DNA from: an uncultured Bacteroides sp.
GTDB lineage: Bacteria > Bacteroidota > Bacteroidia > Bacteroidales > Bacteroidaceae
Direction: 5' to 3'
Assembly (NCBI GenBank): GCA_949296575.1
Contig: CASFPE010000020.1
Coordinates: forward strand, 1 to 64,000
DNA length: 64,000 nt
Position numbers and translations under genes: made by a program. The notes below the pieces were generated by a model. The model did not search any database and was not told the DNA's origin. It saw only the letters and a list, made by a program, of their open reading frames with translations. This document shows, one piece after another, positions 1,363-56,928 of the stretch (its first letter is position 1; the number at the start of each line of letters is the position of its first letter).

Positions 1363-1519
1363 CGCAGGCGGCAGCCCCCGCAGGGGCAGGGAAGCGTTCT
1401 ATGGCTTGGTGGAAACGCGCCGCGACTGTTAAACAATCCAAACGCGCAAGTTAAACAAGGGGCAGCAAGTGCCTCCGCAAAGATAAAATGGCTTTATTTG
1501 CAAGGAAAATCAAGTCAAC

Positions 1520-1744
1520 ATGGCTGAATCGTTGAAGAAAATACTGTCATCCATGCGGGGGGCGTTCCTCCCTTACCAAGGGGAAAGCCGGGCAATACCC
1601 GGAGGAAAGGTTCGCACAGACGACTTGTCCTATTGCGGCATCCATGAAGGCAAGAAGCGAATGAGGCGTGATTTCTCCCGTTTCGCGGGCGATTTCAGGA
1701 AATCGGCGGACGAAGCGAAAGTGAAATTCCAAACGGCTGAATGA
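1520..1744 (+). CDS. Small hypothetical phage protein
   Basis: 74 residues, basic, with no recognised domain. It ends 3 bp before the next ATG, which suggests the two genes are co-translated. It could be a real small gene coupled to the DUF2335-like membrane gene, or part of its leader. No function can be assigned. Confidence 0.45.
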   Translation: MAESLKKILSSMRGAFLPYQGESRAIPGGKVRTDDLSYCGIHEGKKRMRRDFSRFAGDFRKSADEAKVKFQTAE

Positions 1745-12045: not shown

Positions 12046-12588
12046 CTATTTGTATAACCAAATAAAGCCTCCGGCTGTCGGGCGTATTCCCTTGCATACG
12101 TGACATATATGTCCGGCACTTATACCAGTCTTTCTTCCAGCTTCGTTTATAGATGAATATTCAGCTACAAATTTGCCATCTGACGTATATTGAAATACTT
12201 TTATGCTCTCTTTTTCAACGCTCTTTTTTATTCGTGACCCATAAGTATTGTTGTATAAACAATCACACCATTCCAAATTTTCAGCGGAATTATTATCTTT
12301 TACTTCATCTTTATGGTTGACACAATGCAATTTTTGGGGGTTTGGAATAAATGATTCAGCCACAAGTCTGTGAACTAAATGTTCACGCCTTTTCCCATTA
12401 AAAGAAAGGATAACTCTTTTATATCCTTTACTTGTATACGATTGGCTTAATATATGACCTTTTCTTGTTGTGGCAGTCCCGTTGTTTAGAACAACCCTAT
12501 TGATACTTCTTATCCTTCCTTTGCTTGATGCTTGATAAAATCCTTTGTATATTGGAATATCCTTCCAAATTTCAATATTTTCTTTCAT
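12046..12588 (-). CDS. HNH homing endonuclease (NUMOD4-HNH-NUMOD1)
   Basis: 180 residues. NUMOD4 (EIWKDIPIYKGFYQASSKG) leads, followed by an HNH core with VHRLVAESFIPNP, VNHKDEVKDNN and LEWC, and a C-terminal NUMOD1-like DNA-binding segment (INEAGRKTGISAGHICHVCKG). These free-standing nucleases cut a conserved site in a phage gene and spread by repair of the break. The gene is clearly more AT-rich than its surroundings. It starts 17 bp inside the end of the methyltransferase and abuts the displaced copy of that gene's tail, so the methyltransferase C-terminus is its probable target. Confidence 0.92.
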   Translation of the reverse strand: MKENIEIWKDIPIYKGFYQASSKGRIRSINRVVLNNGTATTRKGHILSQSYTSKGYKRVILSFNGKRREHLVHRLVAESFIPNPQKLHCVNHKDEVKDNNSAENLEWCDCLYNNTYGSRIKKSVEKESIKVFQYTSDGKFVAEYSSINEAGRKTGISAGHICHVCKGIRPTAGGFIWLYK

Positions 12589-13663
12589 CTTCTTCTATTG
12601 CTCTAAAAATTTCATACATAACTTGAGGTACGATTGCGTTTCCTAACGCTTTTATGGATTCTGCTCTCCACTTAGGAAAGGTGATACCAGCCAGTCGGCA
12701 GGGAATCCCATCATCTCCTGCACGAATAACGGGTTGAGTTGTGGGGAATCCTGACCATCGGAGTGCTGGCAGTTCCTCCCAATCACTCCGGGGAGTTGCT
12801 GGCGTTTCGTTTGGCTCTTGGGAATGGTGGAGTTCTTCCCGTCCTGTGCGGCGGGTGTTGGGAGCAGTCCCTTCTTGGCTGCAAGCGCAATAGTCGGACG
12901 TTCTTTGGCGTTCGGTGACGGGTGCTTGTTGATTCGCCCGCTCCCGCTGTCTATTGAGGTCGGGGTGGGAAGCAGGTCCTGACGGTACGCCGCCATGCTT
13001 GACAGGTTGGGCATACACCCGCTCTTGCGGTCGCCCGTCCTGCGTACAAAGTTGTCCGGGTCTTCCACTATTTCCGTGGCCCGTGGTGTTGGGAGCAACA
13101 CGCCTTGCGATGAACCAGACGCGGTCCCTGCGGTGGGGCGCTCCGACGGCACAAGCCGGAATAACAAACGGCTGGACGGAATAACCTTCTCGTTCAAGGT
13201 CGCGGCAGATGGTTTCGACGGTGAACTGTTGCCGGAGGAGTACTCTTTTTCTGTAATCTTCTCCGAACAGAGAGGCACCGCCTCCCACTTCAACCTCCGT
13301 GCCGGGCTGAACCATCGTGAGGATTCCAGCAACATTCTCGCCAACGACCCAAGAGGGCCTGATTTCACGTATTGCCCGCAGCATTTGCGGCCACAAGTAG
13401 CGGTCATCGTCCGCTCCTTTCCGGCTTCCGGCCAGGGAAAAGGGCTGGCATGGGAATCCTCCCGTAAGCACGTCGATTCGTCCGCGCCAAGGTGCAAAGT
13501 CTGTTTGGGTGATGTCTTCATACGATGTCGAGTTTGGGTACCAGTATTCGAGGACGCGGCGACAGAAGGGGTTTATCTCGCAGTGGAACAGATTGCTCCA
13601 GCCCATTTGTGTGGCGGCGATTTCCGCGCCGCCTATGCCGCTGAAAAGGGATGCGTGGGTCAT
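12572..13663 (-). CDS. DNA (cytosine-5) methyltransferase
   Basis: 363 residues from the ATG at 13663. Motif I is SLFSGIGGAE (5-14), motif IV GGFPCQPFS with catalytic Cys72, motif VI ENVAG (109-113), motif VIII RRDRVWFIA, and motifs IX/X RAESIKALGNAIVPQV near the end. It transfers methyl from SAM to cytosine C5, probably protecting phage DNA from host restriction; no partner nuclease is adjacent. The last ~25 codons are AT-rich compared with the body and appear to have arrived with the HNH gene. The variable target-recognition region overlaps a second open frame. Confidence 0.95.
   Translation of the reverse strand: MTHASLFSGIGGAEIAATQMGWSNLFHCEINPFCRRVLEYWYPNSTSYEDITQTDFAPWRGRIDVLTGGFPCQPFSLAGSRKGADDDRYLWPQMLRAIREIRPSWVVGENVAGILTMVQPGTEVEVGGGASLFGEDYRKRVLLRQQFTVETICRDLEREGYSVQPFVIPACAVGAPHRRDRVWFIARRVAPNTTGHGNSGRPGQLCTQDGRPQERVYAQPVKHGGVPSGPASHPDLNRQRERANQQAPVTERQRTSDYCACSQEGTAPNTRRTGREELHHSQEPNETPATPRSDWEELPALRWSGFPTTQPVIRAGDDGIPCRLAGITFPKWRAESIKALGNAIVPQVMYEIFRAIEEDERKY
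12652..13521 (-). CDS. Overlapping LLPTP-repeat protein inside the methyltransferase gene
   Basis: A 289-codon frame on the same strand as the methyltransferase, shifted in phase. It has features of a real family: GSLARMLLESS, a SRLLFRLVPSERPT segment, three LLPTP repeats (LLPTPRATEI, LLPTPTSIDS, LLPTPAAQDG) and the ending QLNPLFVQEMMGFPADW. I recall phage proteins of this pattern near or overlapping C5 methyltransferases; their function is unknown. The true start may be the internal ATG at about 13407. The alternative is that only the methyltransferase frame is translated and the repeats mirror its own APNT repeats. Confidence 0.5.
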   Translation of the reverse strand: MKTSPKQTLHLGADESTCLREDSHASPFPWPEAGKERTMTATCGRKCCGQYVKSGPLGSLARMLLESSRWFSPARRLKWEAVPLCSEKITEKEYSSGNSSPSKPSAATLNEKVIPSSRLLFRLVPSERPTAGTASGSSQGVLLPTPRATEIVEDPDNFVRRTGDRKSGCMPNLSSMAAYRQDLLPTPTSIDSGSGRINKHPSPNAKERPTIALAAKKGLLPTPAAQDGKNSTIPKSQTKRQQLPGVIGRNCQHSDGQDSPQLNPLFVQEMMGFPADWLVSPFLSGEQNP

Positions 13664-14409: not shown

Positions 14410-14609
14410 GGCTGCTTCCTTTTTGGCTTGTTCCTGATTTCAATGTAGCCCCTTCGGGCGGTTTCTTCGAGCAAGGGGATGTCCACGTCCCGGATGACGG
14501 AGCGGGTCTCCCCGTTGACGGTCATGCCGGGCGGGATGCCGAACCGTTCGCGGATGCGGCGGCGGGCTTCCGGGTCTTTCGCCCGCCAGAAGATTACGAG
14601 TTCCTTCAT
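14406..14609 (-). CDS. Small basic hypothetical protein
   Basis: 67 residues, Arg-rich (EARRRIRERFGIPPGM), overlapping both neighbours by four bases. It sits between the helicase-loader gene and the Cys-rich gene. No family recognised. Confidence 0.6.
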   Translation of the reverse strand: MKELVIFWRAKDPEARRRIRERFGIPPGMTVNGETRSVIRDVDIPLLEETARRGYIEIRNKPKRKQP

Positions 14610-15190
14610 TTCCGCAGGCTCTCCCCCCTGAACTGCACCCTTTTCGTGACAGCCACGAGCCTGTCCATCGTGCGTTCCCCGTATTTCACGGATATTTCAT
14701 TGAGCGACAGGTTGGTGGTCAGCAGCAGGAGATGCCCCTTCTTTTCGGCTTCGTCTGCTATTTCGCAGAATGCCATGCGGCGTTCGCCGTATTTCACGAG
14801 TTCCTGCTCGGTTCCGATGTCGTCGATGCAGAGCAGATGCTCCTTTTTCAGCGCGTCCACTTCCTTGTTCATCTGCTGCGCGTCTTTCACGGCTGTTATC
14901 TTCCTGCAAAAGAAATTGATGGCTATGGGGATTATTTTCCCGCACAGGAGGGTCTTCCCGCGCCCGCAGTTTCCGTAGCACAGCAACCCGCGCCCTTGGT
15001 TGCCAGCCATCCATGCGGCCACCTCGTCGTATTCTGGCAGCCATCTGGCGTTGCCGCCCGTGAAGTACTGTATGCCTCGCCATAGCACGTCCTTTGCGTT
15101 CGGCACGCGGATTTCCACTTTGTCAGGAACGGGGCAGAACCCTGTGTCCCGCAATTTCTCGATTGTGTCTTTGAAGTTCACCTTTTCCAT
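14606..15190 (-). CDS. DnaC-like helicase loader ATPase
   Basis: 194 residues. Walker A GNCGRGKT (73-80), Walker B LLCIDDIG (119-126), a sensor-1-type LLLTTNLS and an arginine-finger-type YGERTMDRL identify a DnaC/IstB-like AAA+ protein. Such proteins load the replicative helicase at the phage origin. No DnaB-type helicase is in the window, so it may recruit the host DnaB. It overlaps the DUF6291-type replication gene by 13 bp, which supports a replication role. Confidence 0.88.
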   Translation of the reverse strand: MEKVNFKDTIEKLRDTGFCPVPDKVEIRVPNAKDVLWRGIQYFTGGNARWLPEYDEVAAWMAGNQGRGLLCYGNCGRGKTLLCGKIIPIAINFFCRKITAVKDAQQMNKEVDALKKEHLLCIDDIGTEQELVKYGERRMAFCEIADEAEKKGHLLLLTTNLSLNEISVKYGERTMDRLVAVTKRVQFRGESLRK

Positions 15191-16005
15191 TTTTCGTCAT
15201 CGTTGTCGTATTTCCCGGTTGAATTGTCAGCCAGCACCACGCCGGTCCGCGTGCCGCTGTTCCCATAGCTTGGTATTTTGAGTTCAAACAGCCCCGCCCA
15301 GTTGTTGGCCATCGACTGCTCGACGATGGCGGATGCTTTCGCGGGGTCGTTGCCGCTTAGCTGGAGCAGTTTTGAGTAGGCGGCTTTCAGCGATTTCCCG
15401 CTTTTGTAGCTTTCGCGGCGCTCCCGCTTGTATTCCAGCCAAGCCGTGAAAGTTTCCGCATACTCAGGGCTTACAAAGCCGGTGTCCGGCAGTTCGGAAT
15501 GTTTTTTTGCCTTTAAGGCCGCTTCCAATTTTAGCAATTCCTGTTCTTTGGCGCACAATCCGGCTTCTTTGGCTTCCAGTTCTTTTTGCTTTCTCGCAAA
15601 TTCTTCCAAGTCCGCGCCTCCCCCTGAGGGGGGATTAGAGGGGAGAGCAATGTAACATAACCCATTTTCATTATTACATAACCCATTTTCATTATTACAT
15701 AACTCATTATAGGTTTCGGCTTGGTTATCGTTTGGTTTCGGTTTGGTTTTTCCTTGGCTGTCTCCCAAGTTCGGCCTTCCCCCTTTCCTGCCGTTCTCAA
15801 ACTTTTGGTTGTTCGCGTCAATCTGCGGCTTCACAAGTGCCAGCAAGGCTTTCGCAATCGGCTTTAGTTGTCCAGTTGTTTCTCCTGATAAGCCATACTC
15901 GATTATGGCTGTGAGTACGTCTCCCTGCACATCTCTCGGCAGATTCTTGATTGCCTCCCACCAGCTTCCGTAGAACACGAATGACTTTTTCCCTTGGTTC
16001 TGCAT
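15178..16005 (-). CDS. DUF6291-type phage replication protein
   Basis: 275 residues. The N-terminus (SFVFYGSWWEAIKNLP, then PQIDANNQKFENGRKGG) is the DUF6291 signature found in phage replication-initiation proteins. A low-complexity linker repeats NENGLC (18-bp DNA repeats at about 15655-15700). A coiled coil (ARKQKELEAKEAGLCAKEQ) and a C-terminal domain with SGNDPAKASAIVEQSMANNW resemble the DnaD-like helicase-interaction tail. Coupled to the downstream DnaC-like loader, it is the likely origin-binding initiator. Confidence 0.78.
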   Translation of the reverse strand: MQNQGKKSFVFYGSWWEAIKNLPRDVQGDVLTAIIEYGLSGETTGQLKPIAKALLALVKPQIDANNQKFENGRKGGRPNLGDSQGKTKPKPNDNQAETYNELCNNENGLCNNENGLCYIALPSNPPSGGGADLEEFARKQKELEAKEAGLCAKEQELLKLEAALKAKKHSELPDTGFVSPEYAETFTAWLEYKRERRESYKSGKSLKAAYSKLLQLSGNDPAKASAIVEQSMANNWAGLFELKIPSYGNSGTRTGVVLADNSTGKYDNDDEKWKR

Positions 16006-16017
16006 GATGGTATTTTG

Positions 16018-17193
16018 TTAAAAGTACACGTTCGTGAGTTGCCTGCCCCGCGACCACACGGCCCACTTGCCGTTGCCTCCGTCCACGAGCTTCAAATCTT
16101 CCACTTTCCCGAACTTGCCTATGTTGCCACAGAGGTCGATGAACCACGCGGACTGCTTGGAGGGGTGCGGGCGGATGCAGCGGCCCACTATCTGGTAATA
16201 GAGGGCGAGGCTCATCGTTGGCCGCGCCATGACGATGGTGTCCAGTTCCGGGAAGTCGAACCCGGTCGTAAGCACGCCGACGTTGGCCACTACGGGGATT
16301 TTCCCGGCCTTGAAAGATTCGAGAATCCTTTCCCGCTCTTTCTTTGGCGTGTTGCCGCTGACGATGGCCGTTCCGGGGATGGAATAGGAAAGCCGTTCGG
16401 CTTCTTCAATGAAGCGGGTGAACACCAGTATGCCTTTGCGCTTTATCCCGGTCTTGGTGTTGTGCAACAAGCGGGCTACGATATGGGCAAGCCAGTCGTG
16501 CAAGTCCGCCCGCTTGTATTCCTCCCTCACGGACTGTTCCGTGTAGTCCGCCCCGGTTGTGTTGATGCGAAGCCTGGCCGTGTCCCATCCTGGCGGCGGG
16601 ATGCTGTAATATTCCACTTTGGCAAGATATCCCATGTCGAGCAAGGTGGACACTTGCACTTGGTAGAGGACTTCGGTGAACACCCTCGGCCTCGTGCGGG
16701 TGATGAACTTCAACATCGCGCCGAAGTCGCGGCTACTGGAGAGGCGGTAGGGCGTGGCACTAAGACCTATTATTTTACATTTCAGCGAAGATAAGAAAGT
16801 CTTATACATTCCCTCTTTAGGATTAACAAGATGACATTCATCTATCAATACATATCGGAAATGACTAAATTCTTCCATGTGATTGATAGCAGAGCCTATA
16901 GTTGCGAACGTAATCTTGGCTATTTGCTTTTGCCCGACAGACGCGGAATATACCGCGCAGTTAAACGGGCATATTTTCTGCATCTTCTCATAGTTCTGCA
17001 CAAGTATTTCCTTGCTCGGGCAGAATATAAGCACGTTGTCATTCAGCCTGTTTGCTATGTCTGCAATGCACCATGATTTCCCTCCGCCCGTCGGGATGAC
17101 TATCAGCCCGTTATGTTTTACATTCGGGTTTAGGAAGAATGCCACGGCCTTGTCGGAAGCTGATTTCTGGTAATCTCTAAGTTGGATTTCCAT
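16018..17193 (-). CDS. SF2 DEAD/DEAH-box helicase
   Basis: 391 residues, complete. Motif Q/N-terminus RDYQKSA, motif I PTGGGKS, motif II DECH, motif III SAT, motif V VLTTGFDFPELD and motif VI QIVGRCIRP define a RadD/UvrB-like superfamily 2 helicase. In phages these unwind DNA during replication or recombination. It begins inside the end of the small coiled-coil gene upstream and lies 12 bp before the DUF6291-type gene, in one replication operon. Confidence 0.93.
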   Translation of the reverse strand: MEIQLRDYQKSASDKAVAFFLNPNVKHNGLIVIPTGGGKSWCIADIANRLNDNVLIFCPSKEILVQNYEKMQKICPFNCAVYSASVGQKQIAKITFATIGSAINHMEEFSHFRYVLIDECHLVNPKEGMYKTFLSSLKCKIIGLSATPYRLSSSRDFGAMLKFITRTRPRVFTEVLYQVQVSTLLDMGYLAKVEYYSIPPPGWDTARLRINTTGADYTEQSVREEYKRADLHDWLAHIVARLLHNTKTGIKRKGILVFTRFIEEAERLSYSIPGTAIVSGNTPKKERERILESFKAGKIPVVANVGVLTTGFDFPELDTIVMARPTMSLALYYQIVGRCIRPHPSKQSAWFIDLCGNIGKFGKVEDLKLVDGGNGKWAVWSRGRQLTNVYF

Positions 17194-17419
17194 GATTTGA
17201 TTGCGAATTAAGTTCCAACGACTTATTGATGACCCTGTATGCGTCCGTGATGTTCTTATGTCGGTTGTTTTCCTGCTTCAACAGATTGTTGTATGCATTC
17301 AATTTTTCATTTTCAATTTCCCCTTTTTCGACTTTTTCTATCAAGTTGGCGATAAAGTCCTCCATGCTGACACCGGATATCCGTTGGCAGATCACCTTTT
17401 GCTTCAATTCATGTTCCAT
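17177..17419 (-). CDS. Small coiled-coil protein next to the Cas12f-like gene
   Basis: 80 residues from the ATG at 17419, five bases after the stop of the Cas12f-like gene, so almost certainly co-translated with it. A helical, coiled-coil-prone centre (FIANLIEKVEKGEIENEKLNA) is followed by an Asn/Lys-rich region. It overlaps the helicase start by 17 bp. A partner of the Cas12f-like protein is possible from position alone. Confidence 0.6.
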   Translation of the reverse strand: MEHELKQKVICQRISGVSMEDFIANLIEKVEKGEIENEKLNAYNNLLKQENNRHKNITDAYRVINKSLELNSQSNHGNPT

Positions 17420-17424
17420 ATGCC

Positions 17425-18558
17425 TTATTGTTTTTCTGTTACGATTATTCCATTGAGTTTCGCTTTGTATTGTATTTTGCTTTTCAGGCCTGAATAAGAC
17501 CAGTTCCTGATGATGAAATTGTCTCCTTTCATGTTTTCTTCCTTGGCTTTTTCTTCCCTGTGGGATTGGTTGAGCAGAACGATTTCCCCGCATCCGTTCT
17601 TTGCCGCATAGTCAATGAGCATCTTGCTGTATGCATGCAGCTTTGTGTCGACGTAGCGGCATTCCTTTTCGTGGAACCGACCAATGGCTGCGGTTTTTCG
17701 TTTCCGCCCTTTCCCTCCGTTCGAGTATTTGCATTCTTTTTGGCATCTCCTCGCGGCTTCCTGAATCTGCCTCCTGCGGTAGTTGAACTCCTCTTTCGTT
17801 CCAATTTCCATGGTTTTCACCTTTCCGGCATCGTAGTCGTCCGTTTCGGAACAAAAGCAAAGAATGGGGTTCAGGACTCCAAGGAACGCGAATAGTTTCT
17901 TTCCTTTTTCAGTAGTGTTTTCACGCTTTGGTATGTCCACGCAAATCAGGAGGAATGTCTTTCCGTCTTTTATTTGTATGGAAGACGTTGCCATCTTGCA
18001 TTCCCCTTTTATCACTCTTTCCACGATTGACTTGTTGTTGCTCCTGTCCCTTCCGAATCGCATTTGGAAGGGTATTCCCATCAAGGTGAAGAAACATCCC
18101 TTCTTTTTCGTCCCGCCTGCGGAAGTGTATTCCTCGAAGCGGAGGTTTTCAAAACGGTCTGGCTTGAAAGGGATTGGCATGTCCCCCTTATAACTTCTTA
18201 AAGACTTGCTCCACATTCCTCCGTTTTTGCGGTCTTCCTGGTAGTTCTTCCTCACGTTCTGTATGACGCATGACAGCATCCCCATGTCAGCTTTCCCTTT
18301 GAAGGCCATGCTTGCCGCCACATACGGCGCGTTTTGCCTCGTGGCTGTTTTTCCTGTCGTTCCAAGGAATGTTACTTTTTCCTTGTCCGCGTCGGAAAGG
18401 TACGGCATCGTGTTGTCAAGCGCAAAAAGGTGTGACGCGCACATGTTCGCCGTCTTTACGGCTGCGTTCCTGTTGTCGTATAGTTTCGTTGTATATCGAC
18501 CTTTCAAATCCTTGTCGCTCTCGCATACGAAGATTTCTATTTTCCTTGTAATTATCAT
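17425..18558 (-). CDS. Nuclease-dead Cas12f/TnpB-like protein
   Basis: 377 residues. The order matches Cas12f/TnpB: an N-terminal region, a conserved SLRSYKGDMPIPF segment (119-131), a WED-type strand pair ending FLLICVDIP, then RuvC-like FLGVLNP (225-231), a long RRRQIQEAARRCQKE helix with GGKGRKRK, and NWSYSGLKSKIQYKAKLNG (352-370), which in active enzymes precedes the zinc finger. The RuvC-I Asp is Phe225, the RuvC-II Glu is Leu329, and the protein stops at 377 with no zinc finger or RuvC-III Asp. It should therefore bind but not cut. Two CRISPR-like repeats lie directly upstream. Nuclease-dead TnpB/Cas12f relatives are known transcriptional regulators; a similar role is inferred. Confidence 0.85.
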   Translation of the reverse strand: MIITRKIEIFVCESDKDLKGRYTTKLYDNRNAAVKTANMCASHLFALDNTMPYLSDADKEKVTFLGTTGKTATRQNAPYVAASMAFKGKADMGMLSCVIQNVRKNYQEDRKNGGMWSKSLRSYKGDMPIPFKPDRFENLRFEEYTSAGGTKKKGCFFTLMGIPFQMRFGRDRSNNKSIVERVIKGECKMATSSIQIKDGKTFLLICVDIPKRENTTEKGKKLFAFLGVLNPILCFCSETDDYDAGKVKTMEIGTKEEFNYRRRQIQEAARRCQKECKYSNGGKGRKRKTAAIGRFHEKECRYVDTKLHAYSKMLIDYAAKNGCGEIVLLNQSHREEKAKEENMKGDNFIIRNWSYSGLKSKIQYKAKLNGIIVTEKQ

Positions 18559-18573
18559 AGGCGGTTGTATTTA

Positions 18574-18675
18574 GCTGTATCTACCATCCAAATGTATGGC
18601 ACATACATCCTTTGTCCGACAAATTGCCCATGCTTTCCTGCTGTATCTACCATCCAAATGTATGGCACATACATC
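18574..18675. CRISPR. Mini CRISPR-like array: two 36-bp repeats, one 30-bp spacer
   Basis: The same 36 bases occur at 18574-18609 and 18640-18675 with no mismatch, separated by 30 unique bases. In plus orientation the repeat ends in a hairpin (ATGTATG, loop GCA, CATACAT) one base before the spacer, like type V direct repeats. The array starts 15 bp upstream of the Cas12f-like start codon. On the minus strand each repeat contains TACATTTG, which fits a Bacteroidota -7 box, so a duplicated promoter/operator is a serious alternative. A partial repeat-like TACCATC lies at about 18687-18693. Confidence 0.6.
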
Positions 18676-18773
18676 TTGATGGCAGTTACCATCTCAAAAT
18701 CATTTAAATAGGTAGTTCATGAGTGATTAAAATCCTCACGCTAAGGCTGTACAGCCAGCCCGAAAATTGTTTT

Positions 18774-54918: not shown

Positions 54919-56928
<2,010 letters not shown>

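Follow-up and report, generated by a model that had tools for sequence, protein, structure and literature searches.

Several described systems are close to the locus presented here. In dCas12f-sigmaE systems, an ECF sigma factor is genetically linked to the effector. TldR proteins work with a single omegaRNA-like guide and no CRISPR array, and phage ICP1 carries a type I-F CRISPR system that is multi-subunit, cuts, and is aimed at the PLE satellite. In the sections concerned of the articles cited here, V-U3 Cas12f systems are described as lacking adaptation proteins and cleaving DNA (PMC7229846), Al3Cas12f as an active relative from Alistipes (PMC13186708), and plasmid-borne Cas12m (type V-M) as inhibiting the transcription of rival plasmids' genes without cutting (PMC11656645). 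The same sections have it that the repeats of viral mini-arrays are those of host CRISPR systems (PMC11656645), and that a prophage TldR represses the flagellin gene of its host with a guide adjoining TldR (PMC13418256).

The window, that is, the whole stretch of DNA analyzed here, occupies the first 64 kb of a contig that is 93.9 kb long and belongs to a draft genome of 2.72 Mb. It holds a cassette (Table 1) that we interpret as a phage-borne, V-F-like system whose effector has lost its RuvC residues, and which probably uses its guide RNA to bind, presumably without cutting it, the early operon of a rival integrative element in the same cell, blocking transcription.

Table 1. Coordinates in the window of the cassette and of the phage genes discussed in the text
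Feature	Position	Strand	Remark
DnaC-like loader	14606..15190	-	66% aa identity to the target element's loader
Phage's own DUF6291 gene	15178..16005	-	homologue of the targeted gene
80-aa small protein, predicted partner	17177..17419	-	family near the effector in 14/17 loci
Nuclease-dead Cas12f-type effector, 377 aa	17425..18558	-	PADLOC, PDB, Foldseek; catalytic residues lost
CRISPR repeat 2	18574..18609	-	ends 15 bp before the effector gene
Spacer	18610..18639	-	guide sense AGGAAAGCATGGGCAATTTGTCGGACAAAG; 29/30 match at G000:C15:11618-11647
CRISPR repeat 1	18640..18675	-	perfect 36-bp repeat
34-nt linker, core to first repeat	18676..18709	-	3' end can pair with the repeat too
tracrRNA-like core: two hairpins and anti-repeat CTACC	18710..18762	-	precedes arrays; covariation

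A sequence-only reading that preceded this analysis had claimed a Cas12f/TnpB-like gene of 377 codons, and the open reading frame is indeed present. Its product matches exclusively the Cas12u3 and Cas12f models of PADLOC (1e-50 and 1.4e-50, spanning residues 1-374). That reading had made itself depend on a structural match to Cas12f, and one was found: the closest solved structure in a PDB sequence search is 9n9c, a "nuclease-deactivated Cas12f" (E 2e-51), followed by 9nzo (Al3Cas12f; 9e-38) and then other Cas12f. The top Foldseek matches are 9n9c and 9n9m, with Cas12m structures at ranks 26-27, the AlphaFold model used being of low confidence (mean pLDDT 57.8) and serving as supporting evidence only. 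The effector also matches a PHROG "transposase" family (1e-11), while Pfam OrfB_IS605 is reached below cut-off only and NCBIfam TnpB with 77.6 bits, below the cut-off of 100. The dCas12f of 9n9c/9n9m, whose complex with guide RNA has been solved according to the entry title, is thus an effector of the same type, similar in length (365 versus 377 aa) and aligned nearly end to end.

The catalytic residues are where this protein departs from a nuclease. The sequence-only reading had placed Phe225 at the position of the RuvC-I Asp and Leu329 at that of the RuvC-II Glu, and both residues are found as claimed. We aligned the query with the best 120 of 948 database matches (E<=0.001), these 120 being 64-99% identical. 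Position 225 is Phe in 92 and Tyr in 29 of the 121 sequences and Asp in none, and position 329 is Met in 78, Leu in 43 and Glu in none; matches beyond the best 120 may include active nucleases. The zinc finger and RuvC-III, also declared absent, are missing, and the effector stops where an intact Cas12f/TnpB-like relative (L018, 1009-2463), encoded in a different genome of the host's family, continues into both. With the motifs GIDLGINYP, HLEKL, CSCC...CPEC and NADYNAARN, this relative retains the D, the E, the zinc ribbon and RuvC-III, and was our reference for the losses; it is likely a living cousin of the nuclease from which the effector descends. As judged from sequence, the effector is a Cas12f-type (V-U3/V-F) protein that has neither the zinc ribbon nor any of the three RuvC residues, and because of F/Y at 225, L/M at 329 and the absence of RuvC-III, we do not class it as a Cas12f nuclease. 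It shares effector family, tracrRNA and array with Cas12f1/V-U3 (V-F) systems such as AsCas12f1 and the Al3Cas12f of Alistipes, but those nucleases cut DNA, whereas D and E are gone from the 121 aligned proteins and, in the query, RuvC-III and the zinc ribbon are missing as well.

Upstream of the gene, the two perfect 36-bp repeats reported at first reading, 30 bp apart and 15 bp from the effector, were recovered, with a start-to-start distance of 66 bp. We retrieved 16 relative loci, which amount to 15 distinct ones since the arrays of L007 and L013 are identical, and spacers lie between repeats of the same kind in 12 of these 15. Together with the window, this makes 13 loci with 51 spacers between recognised repeats, 46 of them 29-31 nt long. 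No such spacer was counted in L004, L006 or L016; the repeats of L004 are scattered and degenerate, and the effector gene of L016 is truncated by the contig end. A check of related prophages for spacer conservation, proposed with the original claim, favors an array: the effector genes of L011 and L014 are 99.6% identical and their spacer sets nevertheless differ (L011 has six spacers and L014 eight; four occur in both, one of these four with a mismatch), so spacers turn over. We rejected the repeats as an operator or promoter, as relatives carry up to six repeats per array with differing spacers, and the repeats are a CRISPR array. A 12-bp tandem repeat (CGACACACCTAC) was seen at about 8654-8840 of L009, upstream of the effector region.

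Arrays are preceded by a conserved tracrRNA-like core, which may be placed upstream of the effector gene, downstream of it, or on either side at once. On the gene's strand, the core reads CGGGC(T/G)GGCTGTAC..CCTTAACGTGAGG...CACTCATGAAnTACCT, and that of the window matches no family in Rfam. Two lines of covariation bear on it. Among 23 sequences, 11 of the 14 predicted pairs in the two hairpins have changed on both sides. Moreover, the anti-repeat at the core's 3' end co-varies with the repeat of the same module, as CTACC/GGTAG in the window and as GTACCT/AGGTAC, ATAGGT/ACCTAT, ATACAT/ATGTAT and GTTGCC/GGCAAC elsewhere. Cognate anti-repeat/repeat pairs reach 5.83 of 6, versus 4.79 for non-cognate pairs, and 0 of 20,000 permutations was as good (23 modules, which include related ones and hence are not independent). 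The covariation set consists of 27 core rows minus six, five of them dropped for having no clean repeat (L002u, L003u, L004 +1179, L006 and L008) and one as a copy of L011u (L014u), with the upstream modules of L009 and L017 added. We infer that tracrRNA and repeat pair in the cassette. The exact duplex in the window is ambiguous in the predicted folds, where the repeat has the 34-nt linker as an alternative pairing partner. Four modules have a core that is continuous with the repeat, which makes a natural single guide; the anti-repeat/repeat duplex is part of the minimum-energy structure of three of these one-piece modules, and in the fourth the repeat is folded on itself. The prophage of L007 has several guide modules, and an extra tracrRNA-like match was seen on the same contig about 24 kb from the effector (G458:C48:90641-90708), so that such modules may be dispersed over the genome of the phage.

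The order of core and array also settles the guide strand. A 7-bp hairpin in the repeat, read originally in plus orientation, is present, but the orientation did not hold: because the core comes before the array and the anti-repeat pairs with the repeat, the guides lie on the strand of the gene (minus), and a plus-strand crRNA was rejected on the same two grounds.

As for the genomic setting, the left 30 kb of the window carry phage early genes (HNH, methyltransferase, DnaC-like loader, DUF6291, helicase, RusA, NinB/Orf, RecE-like exonuclease and Ant antirepressor), and host genes, a class I tRNA synthetase and others, begin at 31.4 kb. From this region, 25 ORFs were searched against PHROGs and none matched a capsid family, and the prophage extends past the contig end, i.e., is incomplete on the contig. 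Since 12 of the 16 relatives come from IMG/VR virus contigs, residence of the cassette in a prophage is a well-founded inference that falls short of proof. Named relatives include Prevotella, which suggests a Bacteroidales host. The setting likens the effector to Cas12m of plasmids and some prophages, which is likewise an inactivated type V effector carried by a mobile element and blocks the transcription of rival plasmids (PMC11656645, PMC11013384); in contrast to that protein, which belongs to another Cas12 lineage, the present one comes with a tracrRNA-like element, phage contigs and matches in integrative elements. It is also a nuclease-dead TnpB relative in a prophage, as TldR is, but differs in having a tracrRNA-like element and CRISPR arrays with variable spacers.

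A small gene accompanies the effector. In the window its ORF starts 5 nt past the effector stop, and 14 of 17 loci (window included; 13 of 16 when only distinct ones are counted) encode a member of its family on the effector's strand, at a distance of no more than about 620 nt. None was found in L006, L008 (356 nt upstream examined) and L016. The family, which has 521 database matches at E<=0.001, shows the motif IERGKLxVxILKQMNNRSRLLLDAAKYELK, and a longer version of the window's ORF has no match in Pfam.

What the cassette may act on is best seen from the window's own spacer. Its match in the host genome, whose single difference is synonymous (GAA/GAG), has a chance expectation of 4e-10. At up to three mismatches, only one of 399 genomes of the family is matched, the phage's own host, and a reversed-pattern control gave 0. 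The spacer covers codons 12-22 of a DUF6291 gene, 34 nt after the ATG and in the sense of the gene, and this ATG overlaps the stop of an HTH_17/excisionase-like gene. The neighborhood has an integrase before the site, a DnaC-like loader after it and, on the right, a tRNA-Cys. Nine ORFs of this stretch were searched and none matched a capsid family; five of the nine have no Pfam family, and two of the long ones have no PHROG better than chance. We read the flanking ORFs, by eye, as core genes; att repeats were looked for and not found. The target thus belongs to an apparent integrative element co-resident with the phage. The early suggestion of an RNA-guided repressor or activator acting on host or rival-phage genes is supported and can be narrowed: a regulator directed against a rival fits, and the one clear target is an apparent integrative element in the same host, not a host housekeeping gene.

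Several observations concern this element and its relation to the phage. Beyond the matched site, the targeted DUF6291 gene is frameshifted into two ORFs (G000:C15:11584-12244, in L022), which match successive parts of phrog_15768, and the frameshift is either real decay or an error of the draft genome. The phage's own DUF6291 gene is not self-targeted, because the best fit of the spacer there has 15 mismatches. The DnaC-like genes of the prophage (14955-15154) and of the L022 element (12238-12831) are 88.5% identical in DNA along 200 nt, which suggests that phage and element exchanged sequence recently. A site at 55152 of the window, with three mismatches in 20, was set aside as chance, having nine mismatches in 30 over the full spacer; it lies in an ORF that we call DNA ligase-like from reading its translation.

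Two further targets come from relatives. A spacer of L015 matches G278:C61 in 27 of 30 positions, starting from its first base, and two of the three differences are synonymous (chance expectation 0.001, for five spacers and 399 genomes of 3 Mb). It is antisense to a 180-aa gene with no PHROG family and falls 84 nt past that gene's ATG; the gene comes after an integrase and an excisionase-like HTH gene and overlaps the latter; the gene that follows has a weak replication-protein match (phrog_702, 0.0014). For the third target, the 30-mer after the last recognised repeat of L010 matches, with one mismatch and one 1-nt gap, a conserved leader in G059 at a site that precedes a 150-aa gene by 28 nt, and G082 has an equivalent site; in G059 the 150-aa gene is followed by one of 788 aa, whose DUF3987 match is below cut-off. 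This match is suggestive only, and three of the five matches in the L010 array search were not spacers. The three targets have no flank in common (TTTCA, AGTTG and TCTCG). The non-coding leader, conserved in two genera (L058 and L059, about 1440-1600, minus strand; TTAATCTGAGACGAA...GGGAAGTCTCGCGAGTGAAAAGGATCCAATTTCAGCACTTG), has no match in Rfam and is possibly a structured RNA, an origin or a promoter. L065 (804-11030) is an apparent tandem of two small integrative elements, one of which carries the protospacer, with two integrases, two HTH genes and a primase-like gene.

Searches of four arrays against the 399 genomes each matched two of 18 spacers between recognised repeats (window and L015) and one of four terminal 30-mers (L010). 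The L010, L015 and L014 searches scored no more than two candidates in each genome, so their misses are soft, including those of the L014 upstream array, which matched none of the 399 genomes. For L004, L005 (upstream array) and L007, searches of their own genomes gave no convincing match. Exact 20- and 22-nt stretches of the window spacer gave 0 hits in IMG/VR, two other spacers recovered only their source arrays there, and the window spacer with its repeat edges had no match among plasmids. In a phage collection, a 28-nt array match in Paenibacillus phage SV21 (E 0.1) was discarded, since it spans a repeat-spacer boundary. Four pieces of the L010 array match a single 56-bp stretch of a human faecal phage (MT838044.1, 487-542), which is perhaps the same kind of repeat, and the remaining array searches returned no matches.

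In the mechanism that we propose, tracrRNA and crRNA would be produced and loaded onto the effector, and the guide-loaded dead Cas12f would form an R-loop at its target without cleavage and stall RNA polymerase. At the two good targets the roadblock would stand shortly past the start of the gene that follows the excisionase-like HTH gene, and would silence that gene and those behind it, keeping the element's replication genes (DUF6291 and the DnaC-like loader) off to the benefit of the phage. The 80-aa protein may act as a working partner.

Repression fits these targets better than activation does. Activation, in which the effector would recruit a host sigma factor in trans as in a dCas12f-sigmaE-like system, seems unlikely to us. 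It draws on the nearest solved relative, the dCas12f of 9n9c/9n9m/9n9o/9n9q, which (for 9n9c) we take to be part of a sigmaE-linked, RNA-guided transcription system, and on the seven Sigma70_r4_2 matches of the host genome, four of them over cut-off. However, the window's contig has no PF08281/Sigma70_r4_2 match, and only one of 11 viral records has a sigma match over cut-off (L015, about 68 kb from the effector), that of L008, about 4 kb away, being below it with 14.9 bits. Across the 13 genomes or records covered by the search, L004-L006 being outside it, no region-4 match over cut-off is close to the effector. Two targets, moreover, lie inside coding sequence, and activation fits worse because transcripts initiated past the R-loop would lack the start codon and because a linked sigma factor was not found. 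Unlike dCas12f-sigmaE, this cassette sits in phage contigs with no linked sigma factor found, and it has multi-spacer arrays, changing spacers, a conserved small gene and two targets that are the coding starts of mobile-element genes.

That the bound complex blocks replication or excision of the element's DNA, and not transcription, is improbable to about the same degree. The targets are in or before replication-like modules, in part recognized by weak matches, and the conserved non-coding leader of the third could be an origin, but the first two are coding starts of genes that overlap the preceding HTH gene, a classic site for a transcription block. Regulation of a host gene that alters host physiology, the way prophage TldRs act in the relevant part of PMC13418256, is less probable still, given that the only match in the own genome at up to three mismatches in 30, the spacer itself aside, is in the apparent integrative element, and that guides differ among close relatives. 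A decaying V-F remnant with no present function, which the two lone repeats of the window and the lost active site would suggest, is equally hard to credit, as the loss is common to all 121 aligned, full-length proteins (best 120 of 948 plus query; 64-99% identical), the small gene is conserved and the RNA co-varies.

Transcriptional silencing of a rival element would have a counterpart in ICP1, where a phage CRISPR system is likewise turned against a parasitic element in the host, although the present cassette is single-protein and apparently free of cutting. More broadly, the chances seem to us evenly balanced that a widespread family of Bacteroidales phages holds a natural CRISPRi arsenal, made up of a cutting-free Cas12f with its own tracrRNAs, several fast-changing guide modules per genome and a dedicated small partner protein, and specialised in locking the excision and replication operons of co-resident, satellite-like integrative elements; it would be the nuclease-free equivalent of ICP1 CRISPR versus PLE. 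Among the articles listed in searches of openly licensed literature, preprints and subscription journals being outside their scope, we found no description of this combination. The cassette connects three threads, namely TldR, dCas12f-sigmaE and Cas12m, and with guide, effector and target all within one genome, it offers a directly testable case. The compact effector and the one-piece guide modules, with the core fused to the repeat, may suit a small CRISPRi tool. Spacers differ between near-identical cassettes, though no adaptation gene was noticed among the annotated ORFs of the window, which raises the question of how the phage updates its guides. If our interpretation is true, the phage would wield an RNA-guided repressor with updatable spacers against other mobile elements, and would do so without cutting a chromosome that it shares.
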